DNA of 10,621 nucleotides from NCBI RefSeq assembly GCF_014200575.1, contig NZ_JACHBZ010000037.1, forward strand, positions 1 to 10,621, given 5' to 3'. Positions 1,797 to 10,621 of this stretch are shown here, one piece after another. This stretch comes from Mucilaginibacter saanensis. GTDB taxonomy: Bacteria; Bacteroidota; Bacteroidia; Sphingobacteriales; Sphingobacteriaceae. The position numbers and the translations under genes were made by a program. The notes under the pieces are model-generated. The model had not been told where the DNA came from, made no database searches, and was given only the letters and a program-made list of their open reading frames with translations. Numbering within the stretch: the first letter of the stretch is position 1; each line of letters opens with the position of its first letter.

Positions 1797-2087
1797 TTAC
1801 AGTTTGTTAATGGCGTCCTGTTCTTTCAGCGCTTGTATGTTGTTGCTGTCGCTAAAACTTTCTGTCTGGCTGGCAAAATCTTCCAGGATGCTGGTGATGT
1901 TATCCAGGTTATCGGCTACGCGCTGGTGCATATCGGGGAGGTCTTTTTCGAGCCTTTTGTTACCCAGTTCAATATTGTCTACTTCTATTTTGGCAAGCTT
2001 GGTAATAATAGCCTGCTGACTGTTTTTCAGATCTTCCAGTTCATGGACAATTTTCTCCATCAGTCCAAACTTCTTTAACTTATCCAT
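1797..2087 (-). CDS. Small coiled-coil protein, function unknown
   Basis: A 96-residue acidic, helical protein without cysteine, signal peptide or membrane segment. The spacing of hydrophobic residues (LKKFGLMEKIVHELEDLKNSQQAIITKLAKIEV, then further heptad-like stretches to the end) suggests a coiled coil over most of its length, so it is probably oligomeric. No catalytic motif is visible and I do not recognise the family. The ATG at 2087 is the only sensible start. It is divergent from the secreted TPR gene, with a 118-bp gap that contains the 52-bp palindrome, so the two genes could share control. A strong hairpin follows its stop codon. Confidence 0.75.
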   Translation of the reverse strand: MDKLKKFGLMEKIVHELEDLKNSQQAIITKLAKIEVDNIELGNKRLEKDLPDMHQRVADNLDNITSILEDFASQTESFSDSNNIQALKEQDAINKL

Positions 2088-2159
2088 AGTGTTGCGTTTT
2101 TTAATTTAAAGTATAACTGATTAACCTCAAAAAATAAAAATTGTTTAACATTTGGATAA

Positions 2160-2211
2160 TTTCATAACAACTAATATATTAGTTATAACTAATATATTAG
2201 TTGTTATGAAA
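2160..2211. promoter_or_regulatory. Perfect 52-bp palindrome over a start codon
   Basis: Every base from 2160 to 2211 pairs with its mirror position. The palindrome contains two copies of the smaller palindrome AACTAATATATTAGTT (2169-2184 and 2187-2202) spaced by AT, capped by TTTCATAAC on the left and GTTATGAAA on the right. The ATG of the secreted TPR gene (2206-2208) lies in the right cap. It could act as a DNA operator with two adjacent sites for a dimeric regulator, as an RNA hairpin that buries the start codon, or both. It lies between two divergent genes and reads the same on either strand. Confidence 0.9.
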
Positions 2212-3351
2212 AGACTTATCCTATCAGTTTTACTTGTTTTTTGTTTGTCATTATCAACAAACGCTCAGCAAGCGGCAGTAAATGATTCTTTACTGCTTGA
2301 CTATTATCAAAATCAGCGTTTTGCCGAAGCCGCCGATTATCTGAAGAATACCTACCCGGAACCGGTAACTAATATAAAGGTGCTGAGTAAGCTTGCTTAT
2401 ACATCGCAAATGGCGGCCAGATTACCCGATGCCGAAGCTTATTACCAGCGCATGTATAGCGCAGATTCTACCAATATCCCGGTCTTATTTAGTCTTGGTG
2501 CTATAAACCTGCGCAGAGGGAATAATTTAAAGGCCGAAGTTTATTATAAAATGATAAGCCTAAAGGATACCACAAACTTTTTGGTATACAAACAGCTGGG
2601 CAAAATTTGCCTGGATAAGGGCGATATGAACGGAACGTTGATCAATCTTCAAAAGGCCAATAAAATTAATCCGGCAGAGCCAGATGTGGCATCTGATCTG
2701 AGTGATCTGTATGTGACCTTAAAGCAATTTACCGCTGCCGAAACGGTTTTAGACACGGCCATTACACATGATTCTGAAAATATAGTGCTGTTACAAAGCT
2801 TGCTCAAGCTTACTTATTCACAAGGTAAATTTGAGCAGGCTAAAAATACTTGTTTAAAGCTTATTCAGTTGGGAAGCGGCTCCGAATTTATTTTAACCAA
2901 ACTTGGTGTGGCTTATTATAACCTGAAAAACTATAGTTGTAGTGTTGAAACCTTTGCCCAGCTATCGCCAATGGAGCAGTCAGAAACCAGTTTTTATATT
3001 GCAGCACTGGCCTATAAGGCGCTTAAAGATCAGCCTAAGGCCATAGAAAACCTTAATAACGCAATTGATGCTGGAATTTCGCCGAATATAGGTGATTATT
3101 ATATAGAAATGGCGGATAGCTACGAAACCCGGAAACAATATAAAAGGGCCATAGTGGCCTATCAAAAAGGGTTGCAGTTTAAAGAAAAACCAATTACCTT
3201 TTATTTGCTGGCAACTATTTACGATCAGGACCTGAAAAATAAGAAGCTTGCCCTACAATATTATAAAAAATATATGCAAAGCAAACCTCCGGTTAAGGAG
3301 CAAAAGTTTGTTGCTTATTCCAGATCAAGGGTTACCCAGCTTGCCAATTAA
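2206..3351 (+). CDS. Secreted tetratricopeptide-repeat protein
   Basis: A 381-residue protein. It opens with a signal peptide (MKRLILSVLLVFCLSLSTNA, likely cleaved before QQ at residue 21), so it should act in the periplasm or be exported. The rest is a run of roughly eight TPR-like helical hairpins from about residue 88 to the end, recognisable by segments such as LGAINLRRGNNLKAEVYY and IAYQKGL-type second helices. TPR proteins are scaffolds, and no enzyme domain is present. The start at 2206 is chosen because the signal peptide begins there. An in-frame TTG at 2152 would add 18 residues and bury the signal. The start codon lies inside the 52-bp palindrome, an unusual position that suggests control at translation or initiation. 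Its stop codon overlaps that of the convergent riboflavin synthase gene. The binding partner is unknown. Confidence 0.88.
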   Translation: MKRLILSVLLVFCLSLSTNAQQAAVNDSLLLDYYQNQRFAEAADYLKNTYPEPVTNIKVLSKLAYTSQMAARLPDAEAYYQRMYSADSTNIPVLFSLGAINLRRGNNLKAEVYYKMISLKDTTNFLVYKQLGKICLDKGDMNGTLINLQKANKINPAEPDVASDLSDLYVTLKQFTAAETVLDTAITHDSENIVLLQSLLKLTYSQGKFEQAKNTCLKLIQLGSGSEFILTKLGVAYYNLKNYSCSVETFAQLSPMEQSETSFYIAALAYKALKDQPKAIENLNNAIDAGISPNIGDYYIEMADSYETRKQYKRAIVAYQKGLQFKEKPITFYLLATIYDQDLKNKKLALQYYKKYMQSKPPVKEQKFVAYSRSRVTQLAN

Positions 3352-3932
3352 CGATGCATTAAACGGGCTACGTATTTCCCGATAATATCAAACTCTAGGT
3401 TTACAACCGAGCCCACGCGTACGTTATGCAGGTTGGTGTGCTCAAAAGTGTAGGGGATAATGGCTACGGAGAAACTGTTGGCTTTGGAGTTTACCACGGT
3501 TAAGCTAATACCGTTTACACAGATGGAGCCCTTTTCAACCGTTACATTACCGGTTGCCGCATCATATTCAAAGGTATACTCCCAGCTGCCGTCAAGTTCA
3601 TTAAATGCGGTGCAAACGGCGGTTTGGTCAACATGGCCCTGTACAATATGTCCATCTAAACGGGCATTCATTTGCATGCAGCGTTCTAGGTTTACGGGTT
3701 CGCCAGTTTTCAGGTGCTCCAGGTTGGTTTTATTCAGCGTTTCTTCAATAGCGGTAACCACGTGCAGGCCATCGGCCAGGGCAACTACCGTTAAACAAAC
3801 GCCATTGTGTGCCACCGACTGATCGATCTTTAACTCATGCGATATAGCCGACTCTATAGTGATATTTAAATTGCCTTGATCCTGTTGCAGATCGGTTACT
3901 TTACCTAAGGTTTCTATAATTCCTGTAAACAT
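3348..3932 (-). CDS. ribE: Riboflavin synthase, alpha subunit
   Basis: A 194-residue enzyme that dismutates two molecules of 6,7-dimethyl-8-ribityllumazine to riboflavin plus the pyrimidinedione, the last step of vitamin B2 synthesis in the cytosol. It starts with the family hallmark MFTGIIE. Two lumazine-binding barrels are visible: the first carries NGVCLTVV (43-50), then the GHIVQGHVD linker segment (94-102), and the second carries NGISLTVV (140-147) and YTFEHTNL (161-168). The length is normal for the family. The ATG at 3932 is chosen because it begins this motif and has a good GGGAGG ribosome site just upstream; an in-frame TTG at 3944 is rejected. I see no FMN riboswitch upstream and no other rib gene in the window. 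The stop overlaps that of the convergent TPR gene (TTAA, 3348-3351). The symbol ribE is used for this enzyme in many bacteria; ribC is used in others. Confidence 0.96.
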   Translation of the reverse strand: MFTGIIETLGKVTDLQQDQGNLNITIESAISHELKIDQSVAHNGVCLTVVALADGLHVVTAIEETLNKTNLEHLKTGEPVNLERCMQMNARLDGHIVQGHVDQTAVCTAFNELDGSWEYTFEYDAATGNVTVEKGSICVNGISLTVVNSKANSFSVAIIPYTFEHTNLHNVRVGSVVNLEFDIIGKYVARLMHR

Positions 3933-4035
3933 ATTGCCTCCCAATCCCCCTTAATGTTGAGTTTTGATTGGCGGTAAAGCTAAATATATTATGCTTGTTT
4001 TTTGTCAGGATAAAATGAAAAAATGCTTTGTGATT

Positions 4036-4338
4036 TTGTCATTCTGAGCGACAGCGAAGTATGTATTCACCCGCGAGCATGTCGTATACCCGCTCTTGGC
4101 CGCGGGAGGGCCTTTACTTTGTTGCGGCAAAGTAACCAAACCGCTTGTCAGCAGAAATGCTTCTCTGCCGCACAGGGCCTTTACCCTGCAAAACCGGACA
4201 GAACCACGGGCTGCTAAACCTTGCCGCTACTTCGTTCGCTCAATCCCCGGCTTCGGCAAGGTTTGCTAATGCCCCTGCCAGCCGCACAATCCCACCATGT
4301 TCTGCCCGGTTTTCGTCCGAAGCTTATCTGGTGACGGG
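4036..4338 (+). repeat. ~403-bp composite repeat, copy 3
   Basis: This copy begins at a diverged REP motif (TTGTCATTCTGAGCGACAG) about 100 bp upstream of the riboflavin synthase start and runs to GGTGACGGGGG. The first inner hairpin is TTACTTTG (4114-4121) with CAAAGTAA (4128-4135). The second is AAACCTTGCCG with CGGCAAGGTTT (about 4215-4266). It lacks the CCGAACTTGTTTCGG module in front that copies 1, 2 and 4 have, so it is the first member of the second tandem pair. Open frames inside are not credible genes. Confidence 0.85.
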
Positions 4339-4424
4339 GGAAGTTTAGCTCTATACGCTACAAATAAAAAACCTGTCATGCCGAACTTGTTTCACTGTTG
4401 TCCGGTAAACCAAAATCGTAAAAC

Positions 4425-4559
4425 TTTTACCGGACAGCCGGTATCGAAATAGCTACGATATTTTCAGCAAAAAACTTTTTATAACGCTATAACGCAACCA
4501 TAAGCAGTCAAATGCCAAGAATATCCATGTTTTGGTTAAATTTTTACCGGACAGCCGGT
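4425..4559 (+). repeat. Two 18-bp direct repeats inside the MITE
   Basis: TTTTACCGGACAGCCGGT appears at 4425-4442 and 4542-4559, 117 bp apart. The first 12 bases match the element's right end, and the last part (ACCGG-ACAG-CCGGT) can fold into a 5-bp hairpin. They could be transposase-binding sites or remnants of nested insertions. Confidence 0.8.
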
Positions 4560-4620
4560 TTTTAAAAATGAGCACACCTTTCCATTTTTTAGAAGGCTTG
4601 CTTTTAAAAAAGCAATAAAA

Positions 4621-4638
4621 AAGACCCTTTGAGGTCTT
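4621..4638 (+). terminator. Terminator-like hairpin inside the MITE
   Basis: AAGACC (4621-4626) pairs with GGTCTT (4633-4638) around CTTTGA, preceded by an A-run and followed by a loose T-rich stretch. The stem is short. Its position, 45 bp from the element end, parallels the hairpin at 18-43, which is consistent with the 3' end of a deleted transposase gene. Confidence 0.5.
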
Positions 4639-4683
4639 ATGAGATGTTTTCTAATATCAAAGGAACTTTTACCGGACAACAGT

Positions 4684-5043
4684 GAACTTGTTTCGGCACC
4701 CCGCAAGCTGAGCTTTCCACACTTTATCAATAAAACAAACTTGTCATCCTGATCGATAGCGAAGGATCTATTCGCCCGTGAGCATGGTGTATACCCGCTC
4801 TTGGCCGCGGGAGGGCCTTTACTTTGTTGCGACAAAGTAACCAAACCGCTTGTCATCAGAAATGCTTCTTTGCCGCACAAGGCCTTTACCCTGCAAACCG
4901 GGCGGAACCACGGGCTGCTAAACCTTGCCGTCACTTCGTTGGCTCAACGTCCCTGCTTCGGCAAGGTTTGCTAATGCCCCTTCCCAACCGCACAATCCAC
5001 CATGTTCTGCCCGGTTTTCGTCCGAAGCTTATCTGCTAACGGG
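4684..5043 (+). repeat. ~403-bp composite repeat, copy 4
   Basis: This copy starts at the right half of the REP palindrome next to the MITE. Its REP motif is at 4741-4769 and it ends near TCTGCTAACGGG. The spacing from GAACTTG to the REP motif is 57 bp, identical to copy 1. The first inner hairpin is TTACTTTGT (4819-4827) with ACAAAGTAA (4832-4840); the second pairs AAACCTTGCCG with CGGCAAGGTTT around 4919-4970. No gene is called. Confidence 0.85.
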
Positions 5044-5107
5044 AAAAAAAACCAAGTCACTATGTCCAACGCGTCATTAGTAAGAGGCAATCTCCAATAA
5101 AACAAAC

Positions 5108-5191
5108 TTGTCATCCTGAGCGATAGCGAAGGATCTATTCGTAAACTGTTTATATTCGGTAACAGATTCTTCGTTCCGCTCAGAATGACAA
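5108..5191. repeat. REP/BIME-type inverted repeat element
   Basis: The left arm at 5108-5136 (starting TTGTCATCCTGAGCG) and the right arm at 5164-5191 (ending CTCAGAATGACAA) are imperfect complements of 28-29 bp around a 27-bp centre. The left arm is the same motif that heads each composite repeat, so those repeats may have grown from such elements. It lies just downstream of the SRPBCC gene stop and could also slow transcription from that side. Confidence 0.85.
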
Positions 5192-6562: not shown

Positions 6563-7537
6563 ATGAAGTTCCTTAAATATATCCCAGTAGCATTTTTATT
6601 GATTTTAATGGCATCGTGCAAGCCAAAAACTAAGGCAGTTAATATTCCTGTAGTTGGTTTCGTGGATGCTTTTGAGGATGCTACCATAGCACAGGCCCGT
6701 ACCGGCTTTACCGATGCTTTAAAAAAGGACGGCTTCAGCGAGGATAGAAAAACAGTTCAGATAGAATACCGCAACGCCCAGGGTAATATACCTACGCTTA
6801 CACAGATCGTGAACTACTTTGTATCTGAAAAGGTTGATTTACTGGCTACCAGCACCACGCTGGCAACAGTAACTGCCTTGCAGAATACCAAAACTATACC
6901 CGTATTTGCCATGGTATCGCCCGTTCCTGAACGCATGAAAGTGCTTGATGCGGCTGGTAAGGCGCCCGCTAATCTTTTTGGTGCGTTAGAAGACCTGAAC
7001 TATATTGATACTTCATTTTCCATTATCCCCAAATTGCTTAAACCAAAGGGTGCCAAACTGGTGATCGGGATGATCTATAACCAGGCTGAGCCACAATCAA
7101 CAGATGCGCTTAACCGCATTAAATCACTGGCTCAAAAACAAAATGTTACCATTGTTGCGCTGCCGCTTAATACATCGGCCGATGCACAGTTGGTTACGGA
7201 ATCATTACTGTCTAAAAACATTGATGCCTTTTTTGCCAACCCTGATAATACGGTTTTTGCCTCTTTTGAAACGATACTGAAAAGCTGCAATCAAAAAAAC
7301 ATCCCCATATTTACCAGCGAAGCCGGTTTGGTACAGCGTGGTGCCGTTGCTGCTTTTGGCGCCGATATTTACCAATGGGGATACCAGGCCGGCGAGCAGG
7401 CGGCGCAATATTTAAAAACGCATAAAACCACCGGCCTTGCACCGCAAATGGTGAAGATCAGGAAGCGGGTATATAACCCGGCGACTGCCAAAAAGTATAA
7501 TATTACTATCCCGTCAAATTTCGAGGCTGTTAAATAA
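6563..7537 (+). CDS. ABC importer substrate-binding lipoprotein, TrpX-like (COG2984)
   Basis: A 324-residue lipoprotein. The N-terminus is a type II signal peptide with the lipobox MASC, so Cys19 should be lipidated and the protein anchored facing the periplasm. The rest is a two-lobed periplasmic-binding fold of the ABC_sub_bind family: the first lobe opens with VVGFVDAFEDATIAQARTGF (from residue 29), followed by VDLLATSTTLATVTAL and the inter-lobe segment. Relatives are annotated as tryptophan/tyrosine binding proteins, though few have been tested, so the ligand is inferred. It is the first gene of a three-gene operon; its stop abuts the permease ATG with no spacer. No T-box or amino-acid leader is visible upstream. 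Confidence 0.92.
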   Translation: MKFLKYIPVAFLLILMASCKPKTKAVNIPVVGFVDAFEDATIAQARTGFTDALKKDGFSEDRKTVQIEYRNAQGNIPTLTQIVNYFVSEKVDLLATSTTLATVTALQNTKTIPVFAMVSPVPERMKVLDAAGKAPANLFGALEDLNYIDTSFSIIPKLLKPKGAKLVIGMIYNQAEPQSTDALNRIKSLAQKQNVTIVALPLNTSADAQLVTESLLSKNIDAFFANPDNTVFASFETILKSCNQKNIPIFTSEAGLVQRGAVAAFGADIYQWGYQAGEQAAQYLKTHKTTGLAPQMVKIRKRVYNPATAKKYNITIPSNFEAVK

Positions 7538-8407
7538 ATGGATTTTTACCTTACCGCTTTACTACAAGGGCTTTGCTTTTCGGCACTGGCATTGGGTATT
7601 TATATCTCCATGAAGATATTTAACATCCCCGATATTACTACCGATGGCAGTTATACCCTGGGCGGCGCGATAACCGGGATATTGCTAACTCATCATCAAT
7701 CACCTTATGTTATTTTACCTGCGGTGATTGTAGCCGGTGGGGTAGCAGGAGCGTTCACGGGCATTATCCACACTAAACTGAAAATAAACGCGCTGCTGGC
7801 CGGTATCCTGGTCATGTATGCGCTTTACTCGGTAAATCTTACTATCATGGGGCGCTCTAATTTGCCGCTTATCAGCGTGTCATCGCTTTTTTCGTTACTT
7901 CAGATAGCAGTGGATCCTAATCAAAATACTTTCTGGATATTGGGGGTATTTGTTATTGTAATCACTTTTTTAATAGGTTACCTGCTCAAAACAGATTTTG
8001 GTTTAGCCATGCGCGCCACAGGCAACAGCGAATCCATGATCAGGGCACTGGGTGTAAATACCGACCGCATGAAAATTACCGGTCTGGCACTGGCCAATGC
8101 ACTTACCGCACTTAGCGGCTATTTAATTGTACAGTTTCAGGGCTTTGCTGATATCAGCATGGGTATAGGTATAGTGATTGTGGGCCTGGGCTCGGTCATT
8201 ATTGCTGAAACGCTGATCAACTGGTTCCGGATTACCAAAATCTGGATCAGCCTGGTGCTGGTACTGGGTGGTGCTGTTATATTTCAATTTGTTTTAGCCT
8301 TTACACTCGCCATGGGCGTTGATCCTAATATGCTCAAAATAGTTACCGCTGGTTTTGTATTATTAGTAGTTGGTTTACCCCGTTTATCCTCATTAAGAGC
8401 CTCATGA
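7538..8407 (+). CDS. ABC importer permease, TrpY-like (COG4120)
   Basis: A 289-residue inner-membrane protein of the BPD_transp_2 family (the branched-chain amino-acid/ribose permease type). It is almost wholly hydrophobic, with about eight probable membrane segments. The cytoplasmic loop GLAMRATGNSESMIRALGVN (155-174) is the conserved coupling segment that contacts the ATPase in this family. NIPDITTDGSYTLGGA (29-44) is another typical block, near the first segments. It starts directly after the lipoprotein stop and overlaps the ATPase start by ATGA, which points to translational coupling. It should form the transmembrane pore of the importer. Confidence 0.93.
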   Translation: MDFYLTALLQGLCFSALALGIYISMKIFNIPDITTDGSYTLGGAITGILLTHHQSPYVILPAVIVAGGVAGAFTGIIHTKLKINALLAGILVMYALYSVNLTIMGRSNLPLISVSSLFSLLQIAVDPNQNTFWILGVFVIVITFLIGYLLKTDFGLAMRATGNSESMIRALGVNTDRMKITGLALANALTALSGYLIVQFQGFADISMGIGIVIVGLGSVIIAETLINWFRITKIWISLVLVLGGAVIFQFVLAFTLAMGVDPNMLKIVTAGFVLLVVGLPRLSSLRAS

Positions 8408-9153
8408 TAGTTATTAACGATGTTCATAAAATTTTTAATAAGGGTAAGGCTAACCAGGTAAATGCGGTTAACGGCATCAGCCTGCATATTGCCAGCGGCG
8501 ATTTCCTGGTAATTGTAGGCTCCAACGGTTCGGGCAAAACTACGTTGCTTAACCTGGTGGCTGGCAGCGTTTTTCCGGATGCGGGCAGCGTTGTAATTGA
8601 TGATAACGATGTGAGCAAACTGCCCGATTATAAACGGAGCCAGTGGATAGCACGCGTTTTTCAGAACCCGATGAGCGGCACGGCATCTGACCTGAGCATT
8701 CTGGACAATTTCAGGCTGGCGGCTATACGTACCAGGGCTAAAGGACTATCAATTGGTATTAATGATCAGTTTAAACAACAGGTAAAGGAAAAGATAGCCA
8801 CGCTGGGCATGGGCCTGGAGAGCAAGATAGAGCAACCCATGGGCACGCTTTCGGGCGGACAGCGGCAGGCTTTAACCTTGCTGATGAGTGTGATGGACAG
8901 CTGCAAGGTTTTACTGTTGGATGAGCCCACCGCAGCGCTCGACCCACGATCGGCCGAGGTGGTGATGCGTACGGCTGATAAACTGATCACGGATTTTAAA
9001 CTGACCGCTATACTGATCACCCATAACCTGAAGGATGCCTACAACTATGGCTCCCGGATTATACAGATGAACGAGGGCCTTGTACAGCACGATCTGAACA
9101 ACAAACAAAAGTCAGATTTAAAGCAAAATGATCTTTTTGATTGGTTCAGTTAA
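8404..9153 (+). CDS. ABC importer ATP-binding protein, TrpZ-like (COG1101)
   Basis: A 249-residue cytoplasmic ATPase that powers the importer. All motifs are intact: Walker A GSNGSGKTT (39-47), Q-loop Gln87 in VFQNP, signature LSGGQ (149-153), Walker B KVLLLDEP (168-175) with catalytic Glu174, D-loop AALD (177-180) and H-loop His207. The VFQNPMSGTASDLSI sequence after the Q-loop is typical of the COG1101 group that pairs with COG2984 and COG4120 genes. It overlaps the permease stop by four bases. The C-terminal tail (SDLKQNDLFDWFS) is short, with no regulatory domain. Confidence 0.95.
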   Translation: MIVINDVHKIFNKGKANQVNAVNGISLHIASGDFLVIVGSNGSGKTTLLNLVAGSVFPDAGSVVIDDNDVSKLPDYKRSQWIARVFQNPMSGTASDLSILDNFRLAAIRTRAKGLSIGINDQFKQQVKEKIATLGMGLESKIEQPMGTLSGGQRQALTLLMSVMDSCKVLLLDEPTAALDPRSAEVVMRTADKLITDFKLTAILITHNLKDAYNYGSRIIQMNEGLVQHDLNNKQKSDLKQNDLFDWFS

Positions 9154-10540: not shown

Positions 10541-10579
10541 TAAACAACAAAAGCGGGCAAAGCCCGCTTTTGTTGTTTA
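10541..10579. terminator. Strong bidirectional terminator
   Basis: A perfect 18-bp stem (10541-10558 with 10562-10579) closes an AAA loop, with a GC-rich top (GCGGGC/GCCCGC) and A- and T-rich bases on the two sides (AACAACAAAA, TTTTGTTGTT). It would stop transcription in either direction and probably separates the TPR gene from a gene beyond the window. Confidence 0.92.
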
Positions 10580-10621
10580 GCCTTTAGCCTTTAGCCTTTA
10601 GCCTTTAGCCTTTAGCCTTTA
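10576..10621. repeat. TTTAGCC heptamer tandem array, running off the window
   Basis: Six complete TTTAGCC units (10576-10617) plus TTTA reach the window edge with no mismatch. The first unit overlaps the end of the terminator stem. Seven is not a multiple of three, so the array is unlikely to be coding. Its true length is unknown. Confidence 0.95.

Follow-up and report, generated by a model that had tools for sequence, protein, structure and literature searches.

A perfect 52-bp palindrome over the start codon of a Mucilaginibacter saanensis TPR gene is most likely a tandem operator for a BlaI/MecI-family repressor

The perfect 52-bp palindrome that covers the start codon of a TPR-protein gene in Mucilaginibacter saanensis is, with high probability, a tandem operator for a BlaI/MecI-type repressor, and the best candidate for this repressor in the same genome is a PF03965 protein that we call BlaI-A (G000:C23:44103-44441). 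This reading is based on sequence comparison within the genus. The original prediction had offered two interpretations of the palindrome: a paired operator for a dimeric regulator, and an mRNA hairpin that hides the start codon until it is opened. For the TPR gene, the first is strongly supported by the sequences, since the site is kept ahead of this gene across the genus and has counterparts in front of genes for BlaI/MecI-family repressors.

Results

Geometry of the palindrome and content of the window

The window analysed here, a stretch of 10,621 nucleotides, contains the following features around the palindrome.

1797..2087, minus strand: divergent gene, 96 aa; in relatives an MDxLKKF- or MDKIRKF-like start faces the operator
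2151..2154, plus strand: putative -33 element TTTG; TTTG stands 19-20 nt before TANN at 44/49 distinct loci
2160..2211, no strand: perfect 52-bp palindrome, 26/26 pairs match
2160..2168, no strand: left cap TTTCATAAC, exact reverse complement of the start-codon flank
2169..2184, no strand: operator 1, AACTAA-TATA-TTAGTT, holding the putative -7 box; motif kept at TPR orthologues, three exact AACTAA-N4-TTAGTT copies in the own genome
2175..2182, plus strand: putative -7 box TATATTAG within operator 1; one mismatch to TAnnTTTG, TA fixed in 49/49
2187..2202, no strand: operator 2, AACTAA-TATA-TTAGTT; second site present in some relatives only
2203..2211, plus strand: right cap GTTATGAAA including the start codon; ATGAAA/ATGAGA after the first site at 48/49 distinct loci
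2206..3351, plus strand: TPR-repeat protein gene, probably the controlled gene; Pfam TPR matches, signal peptide judged by eye

Inspection of positions 2160-2211 confirmed the palindrome, with symmetry complete over all 26 pairs. It holds two copies of AACTAATATATTAGTT (2169-2184 and 2187-2202; step 18, gap 2 bp), and the start codon (ATG, 2206-2208) lies in the right cap, as had been described. At the local composition (A+T about 80%) the chance of one matching pair is 0.34. The probability of 26 matching pairs is then 8e-13 per centre, and that of the 14 pairs beyond those forced by the two half-site sets is 3e-7, which bears out the earlier statement that the symmetry is far beyond chance. 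Apart from it, the longest perfect palindromes of the window measure 16 bp (the two sites within 2160-2211) and 14 bp (one).

The divergent gene is present as previously stated. Its 96-aa protein showed no Pfam or NCBIfam match, and the MDxLKKF- or MDKIRKF-like start facing the operator was seen at 9 of the 30 loci listed. An adjacent regulator gene had been reported as missing; in agreement with this, none was found among the eight window proteins scanned with Pfam, nor by NCBIfam in the three ABC-transporter proteins and in three of the eight Pfam-scanned proteins that were scanned again.

Other contents of the window include an apparent ABC transporter operon (6563-9153) with genes for a substrate-binding protein, which scores 146 bits to the TrpX model and thus under its cut-off, a permease-like protein and an ATPase. 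Tandem TTTAGCC units occupy the contig end (about 10577-10621). A repeat of about 255 bp occurs in four copies (186-438, 589-842, 4085-4345 and 4790-5043) and genome-wide in 13 long copies of 84-100% identity, several of them close to contig starts, with shorter pieces elsewhere.

The operator motif is conserved at TPR genes and shared with repressor genes

Searches with the full-length unit first hinted at a unique site. Exact AACTAATATATTAGTT was found in the own genome only at this locus, and a search allowing two mismatches returned 10 matches per strand for the unit versus 16 for the reversed control; it was the open N4 spacer that revealed the link to a repressor. Comparison of the TPR orthologues in the genus showed a constant part, AACTAA-N4-TTAGTT, whose four middle bases vary. 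This motif has three exact sites in the own genome (6.24 Mb), two in the window and one at C23:43979-43994, the latter ending 93 bp ahead of the start of BlaI-A. As the C23 site also lies upstream of a divergent gene that appears metallo-beta-lactamase-like by eye, it could belong to that gene instead of to BlaI-A.

In 36 genomes of the genus, AACTAA-N4-TTAGTT occurred 157 times versus 41 times for the reversed control, with one genome (G003) running opposite (one motif, eight control matches). For the own genome and 13 relatives, whose sites were listed completely, the 77 sites comprised 17 at the TPR gene, at least 18 at PF03965 genes (a lower bound, counted as a site within 700 bp upstream of such a gene) and 42 others. 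A dyad-symmetric site is common to the TPR promoter and the upstream region of a PF03965 repressor gene. The search of the motif in the same and related genomes, which had been proposed with the original prediction, has located it ahead of TPR start codons and near repressor genes.

A strong match to the TPR gene was detected in 29/36 genus genomes, and 26 of these 29 carry the site at the gene. Among 34 orthologous Mucilaginibacter TPR loci in the genome contig collection, 33 have the site ahead of the start codon; the exception (L176) comes from a MAG and has 45% identity, and three loci of 23-32% identity, assigned to other phyla by title (L183, L185, L186), stand outside this count. The two fractions are not independent, many loci being from the same genomes. 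Two sites followed by ATG, at any gene, were found in 26/149 genus genomes. Paired sites at TPR loci have steps of 17-22 bp. Since 37 of the 51 distinct TPR loci have a single operator, the two-operator layout is not general.

BlaI-A is the best candidate regulator

BlaI-A matches PF03965 above the cut-off (104.4 bits), its best PDB match is MecI, and its scores with the named NCBIfam models for BlaI, MecI and CopY fall short of their curated cut-offs. At L108, BlaI-A (3089-3460) is directly followed by an M56 peptidase gene (3463-5136; Pfam 44.4 bits, above cut-off, HEQVH visible in the sequence), a gene order as in BlaI/BlaR1 systems. The product of the second gene, a putative sensor, matches M56, TonB_C and Plug above the Pfam cut-offs and a SusC/RagA signature and TonB C-terminus in NCBIfam. 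No beta-lactam sensor-domain family was detected in it at E <= 0.001. We judge the combination encoded at L108:3463-5136, a BlaR1-like M56 part joined to a TonB C-terminal domain and, at the end, a SusC/RagA plug signature, to be unusual.

The own genome contains four PF03965 genes. Together with the 30 loci of relatives that were listed, these gave 34 BlaI-family genes, 31 of which have a site (at most two mismatches, within 220 bp upstream) as compared with 1/34 for the reversed control. Of the 12 BlaI-A subfamily genes examined, 11 have AACTAA-N4-TTAGTT with no or one mismatch; the remaining one, in G001, is preceded by two exact sites at distances of 509 and 540 bp. Most genes of the subfamily to which the own C9 gene belongs carry AACTAY..RTAGTT, and the operator form tracks the repressor subfamily.

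BlaI-A is sharply delimited (80-94% identity versus at most 58% for the next paralogues) and was found in 30/36 genomes. Of the 26 genomes with a TPR site, 25 have BlaI-A, the exception (G015) being 71% complete; it is missing from all three genomes that have the TPR gene without the site (G003, G024, G030). As related genomes may share history, these three may represent one or two evolutionary events. Five further genomes (G001, G007, G011, G018, G034) have BlaI-A and no strong TPR match. The TPR genes of G024 and G030 carry hybrid sites, AACTAT-N4-TTAGTT and AACTAA-N4-ATAGTT, and the latter form is also found upstream of the BlaI-family gene of these genomes.

That another BlaI-family paralogue uses the same operator, either the C9 'KELTK' type or the C2 'MEKL' type, is unlikely. 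The C9 repressor resembles BlaI-A in its recognition-helix segment (YNTVSTVVRVLE vs YNTVSTIIRILE) and has related sites of its own, and it could contribute to the control of the TPR site; genes of its type mostly have the different operator given above, however. The MEKL type has its genomic position in its favour, as in nine genomes it is encoded 4.6-20 kb downstream of the TPR gene and in the same orientation. Yet no site with fewer than three mismatches was found in the 200 bp ahead of any of the 15 MEKL-type genes examined, 9/26 genomes with the TPR site lack the type (E <= 1e-40), and we have set it aside as the regulator.

The genes starting MEKLSQQEEEA, with close variants, were observed at L112, L113, L114, L115, L116, L117, L126 and L127, at a distance of 4.6-11 kb from the TPR gene (20 kb in G010) and with no matching upstream site. 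MQKL-type BlaI genes, which have a near-identical site (TACTAAT..ATTAGTT), were rejected as none of the four own PF03965 genes starts with MQKL.

A promoter appears to be embedded in operator 1

Comparison of 49 distinct promoters (the four loci without the site, L029, L030, L032 and L176, and loci identical over 56 bases were dropped) revealed that the N4 spacer of the first site begins with TA in all 49. TTTG is located 19 or 20 nt upstream of this TA in 44 and is missing from five. At second sites, TA at the spacer start was found in 1/14, and at exact BlaI-A sites, read towards BlaI-A, in 0/8. Because second sites and BlaI-A sites mostly do without it, the TA of the first site would serve the promoter and not the repressor.

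Bacteroidetes promoters are described in excerpts of PMC7366714 as having TTTG near -33 and TAnnTTTG at -7, the -33 motif not having been identified in Flavobacterium johnsoniae according to the same excerpts. TTTG-N19/20-TANNTTAG, in which TANNTTAG has one mismatch to the consensus TAnnTTTG, thus appears to be a promoter of this type with its -7 box in operator 1, so that the operator would lie over the promoter. Since the -7 box is reported to span -12 to -5 in F. psychrophilum (excerpts of PMC9723704), transcription is predicted to start at about 2187, the first base of operator 2 in the middle of the palindrome, leaving a leader of 19 nt. In relatives with a single operator two bases before the ATG (e.g. 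L159, L163) the predicted start falls on the A of ATG, and leaderless mRNAs are therefore predicted; leaderless messages made up 5.5% of those examined in F. psychrophilum (excerpts of PMC9723704).

In the mechanism that we propose, a BlaI-A dimer bound to operator 1 would mask the -7 box of the TPR promoter, another on operator 2 would lie over the leader and the predicted start point, and RNA polymerase would thereby be kept off. By analogy to BlaI/BlaR1, the M56 peptidase encoded after BlaI-A may sense an envelope signal and inactivate the repressor, whereupon the TPR gene would be switched on together with other envelope genes.

Folding and conservation do not support an RNA switch

The alternative put forward in the original prediction, an mRNA hairpin over 2160-2211 that hides the start codon until heat melts it or a protein opens it, is very unlikely. 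RNA from 2160-2240 does fold well (-29.2 kcal/mol, z -8.4). Of the two relatives folded, both with one site, L158 gives a hairpin that spans its site but is shorter (z -2.8, 1/200 shuffles as good) and L159 folds more weakly (z -1.5, 14/200 shuffles as good). With a start at about 2187, however, the full RNA hairpin would not be made, and a transcript start inside the palindrome had been named beforehand as excluding it; the leader from this predicted start folds no better than shuffles (z +0.7).

Conservation also speaks against the hairpin. Full symmetry is private to the window among 14 paired-site loci, the 37 distinct TPR loci mentioned above carry a single site, and the same motif stands upstream of many other genes at varied distances. 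When flank pairing was compared across relatives, a check suggested in the original prediction, values at the TPR gene were near those of shuffled flanks at 6, 9 and 12 bp, and the innermost 3 bp alone exceeded shuffles (30/2000 reach the value). Flank pairing at the sites of other genes likewise showed no clear excess (101/2000 shuffles reach the observed value at 9 bp). On the grounds of folding from the predicted start, and with neither conservation nor flank covariation in its favour, an RNA thermometer was rejected, and the RNA-switch reading is not supported.

Origin of the exact symmetry

The proposed tandem operator accounts for part of the symmetry; symmetric flanks are not typical of these sites in general and call for an explanation of their own. 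In the 13 other distinct paired-site loci, 13-20 of 25-28 pairs are symmetric versus 26/26 in the window, which has matching spacers, a matching centre and nine flanking pairs over and above its two operators. The near paired-site loci L150, L151, L157 and L174 keep ATGAAA on the right and have other sequence on the left; because they differ there, the start-codon side could have been copied, as its reverse complement, into the left cap. Of the 48 other distinct loci, however, four (L153, L154, L160, L169) have TTTCAT at 4 nt to the left of the first site, where the window has it at 3 nt, and given this similar position six bases of the left cap may be inherited.

Exact flank runs of at least 7 occur in five of the 104 distinct operator blocks, all kinds taken together (L066, 11; the window, 9; L048, 8; L059 and L031, 7 each). 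The shuffle mean for such runs is 1.02 (five or more in 5/2000 shuffles) and displaced centres lead to an expectation of 0.15; homologous flanks inflate the shuffle null, and a third null designed to get round them still gives 0.76-0.92. Three runs of at least 8 were observed, a number equalled in 95/2000 shuffles, and two of at least 9, equalled in 128/2000. A further locus with nine flank pairs and one operator (L162) is outside the 104 blocks, in which near relatives were merged. The longest run belongs to a site at another gene (L066; G009:C85, 1501-1516) and has 11 exactly symmetric flank bases on each side, exceeding the caps in the window.

Template switching at quasi-palindromes is described in excerpts of PMC8794818 and PMC7202029 as making imperfect inverted repeats perfect or more nearly so. 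A template switch during replication at an existing quasi-palindrome is the likelier, if unproven, cause of the extra symmetry here. The likeness to the template-switch mutations of E. coli and others lies in the perfected repeats; in our case the event would be deduced from a single locus and from a tail test whose controls are mixed.

It is improbable that the perfect symmetry was itself selected, for a cooperative complex of four repressor protomers or for a cruciform, and is not a mutational by-product. Such a role would agree with Clostridium thermocellum, in which two BlaI regulators seem to need two pairs of inverted repeats (excerpts of PMC8457756), and with the spacers of L157, which are also mutually complementary. 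Against it stand the 13 other paired-site loci, which at spacings of 17-22 bp do without full symmetry, and the sporadic long exact flank runs at sites of other genes (L066, L048, L059). Nor does the symmetry beyond the two operators look like a selected RNA structure.

Chance or an assembly artefact is the least credible origin, and we regard it as extremely improbable. Fold-back artefacts are able to create inverted repeats, and with TTTCAT left of the site in four other loci the left cap may be part-inherited and its fit to ATGAAA fortuitous. The probability calculated above for the 14 extra pairs argues against chance, however, and the divergent gene and operator are common to relatives, hence the palindrome does not lie where unrelated sequences meet.

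Many other sites lie near envelope genes

Survey of the fully listed genomes, considering genes that start within 260 bp and assigning classes by reading N-termini, showed an envelope or membrane protein gene near 33 of the 36 other places (the 42 other sites with six close pairs merged), a descriptive count; the exceptions are L050, L225 and L234. Pfam was applied to 13 candidate targets, including L065 from outside the 36 places, and the remainder were assigned by resemblance. CarboxypepD_reg-type domains were detected in five of the 13 (with a TonB plug above cut-off in one and below it in another), Porph_ging in two (one of which is GLPGLI in NCBIfam), DUF6624 in two, and MacB/FtsX, redoxin, MFS and TonB_C in one each.

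Discussion

Resistance to beta-lactams and to copper is the main setting in which BlaI/MecI repressors are known. In the systems of Staphylococcus and Bacillus, where they act with BlaR1/MecR1, a dimeric PF03965 repressor binds a dyad operator over the promoter, sometimes two, and the repressor gene adjoins an M56 sensor gene. The system described here is similar in its PF03965 gene with an adjoining M56 gene and in MecI being the best PDB match, and we propose, from the sequence features, that the window site works like a BlaI operator. Unlike in BlaI/BlaR1, the putative targets are envelope proteins and the putative sensor carries TonB_C and the SusC/RagA plug signature; no link to a beta-lactamase was seen at this locus, where the target is a TPR protein. 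The operators differ as well. The core in the window is AACTA-N6-TAGTT versus the classical TACA/TGTA (excerpts of PMC7253601), and this places AACTAA-N4-TTAGTT outside the staphylococcal/CopY consensus class.

The BlaI_0696 and BlaI_1845 repressors of C. thermocellum recognise inverted repeats of GTCTAT that are five nucleotides apart (excerpts of PMC8457756). They share with the present system the CTA core of the inverted repeats, paired sites for four protomers and autoregulation, whereas they belong to another phylum and their regulons are small, with three and one operons; no promoter-embedded site is described for C. thermocellum BlaI in these excerpts. In the part of the literature that was searched, we found nothing on point about a BlaI operator or regulon in Bacteroidetes.

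The copper repressors CopY/CopR are members of the same Pfam family as BlaI/MecI. BlaI-A scores 47 bits with the CopY_TcrY model of NCBIfam, under the curated cut-off of 121.95 bits, and the CopY/CopR operator, given as RNYKACANNTGTMRNY in an excerpted source, differs from the window operator.

As a tentative wider picture, in which we have limited confidence, a BlaI-type repressor and an M56-TonB-SusC-plug sensor may control an envelope regulon throughout Mucilaginibacter, in which the TPR operators would double as the -7 box of promoters with very short leaders or none and template switching would sometimes perfect operators. The palindrome also calls for caution, since even a dramatic palindrome at a start codon may have an ordinary operator as its basis rather than an RNA switch. 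The part worth following is the apparent envelope regulon around it, for which a testable operator, a candidate regulator and a list of candidate targets are now available: a repressor of the BlaI/MecI kind seems to govern outer-membrane and secreted proteins in a genus of soil and rhizosphere bacteria.
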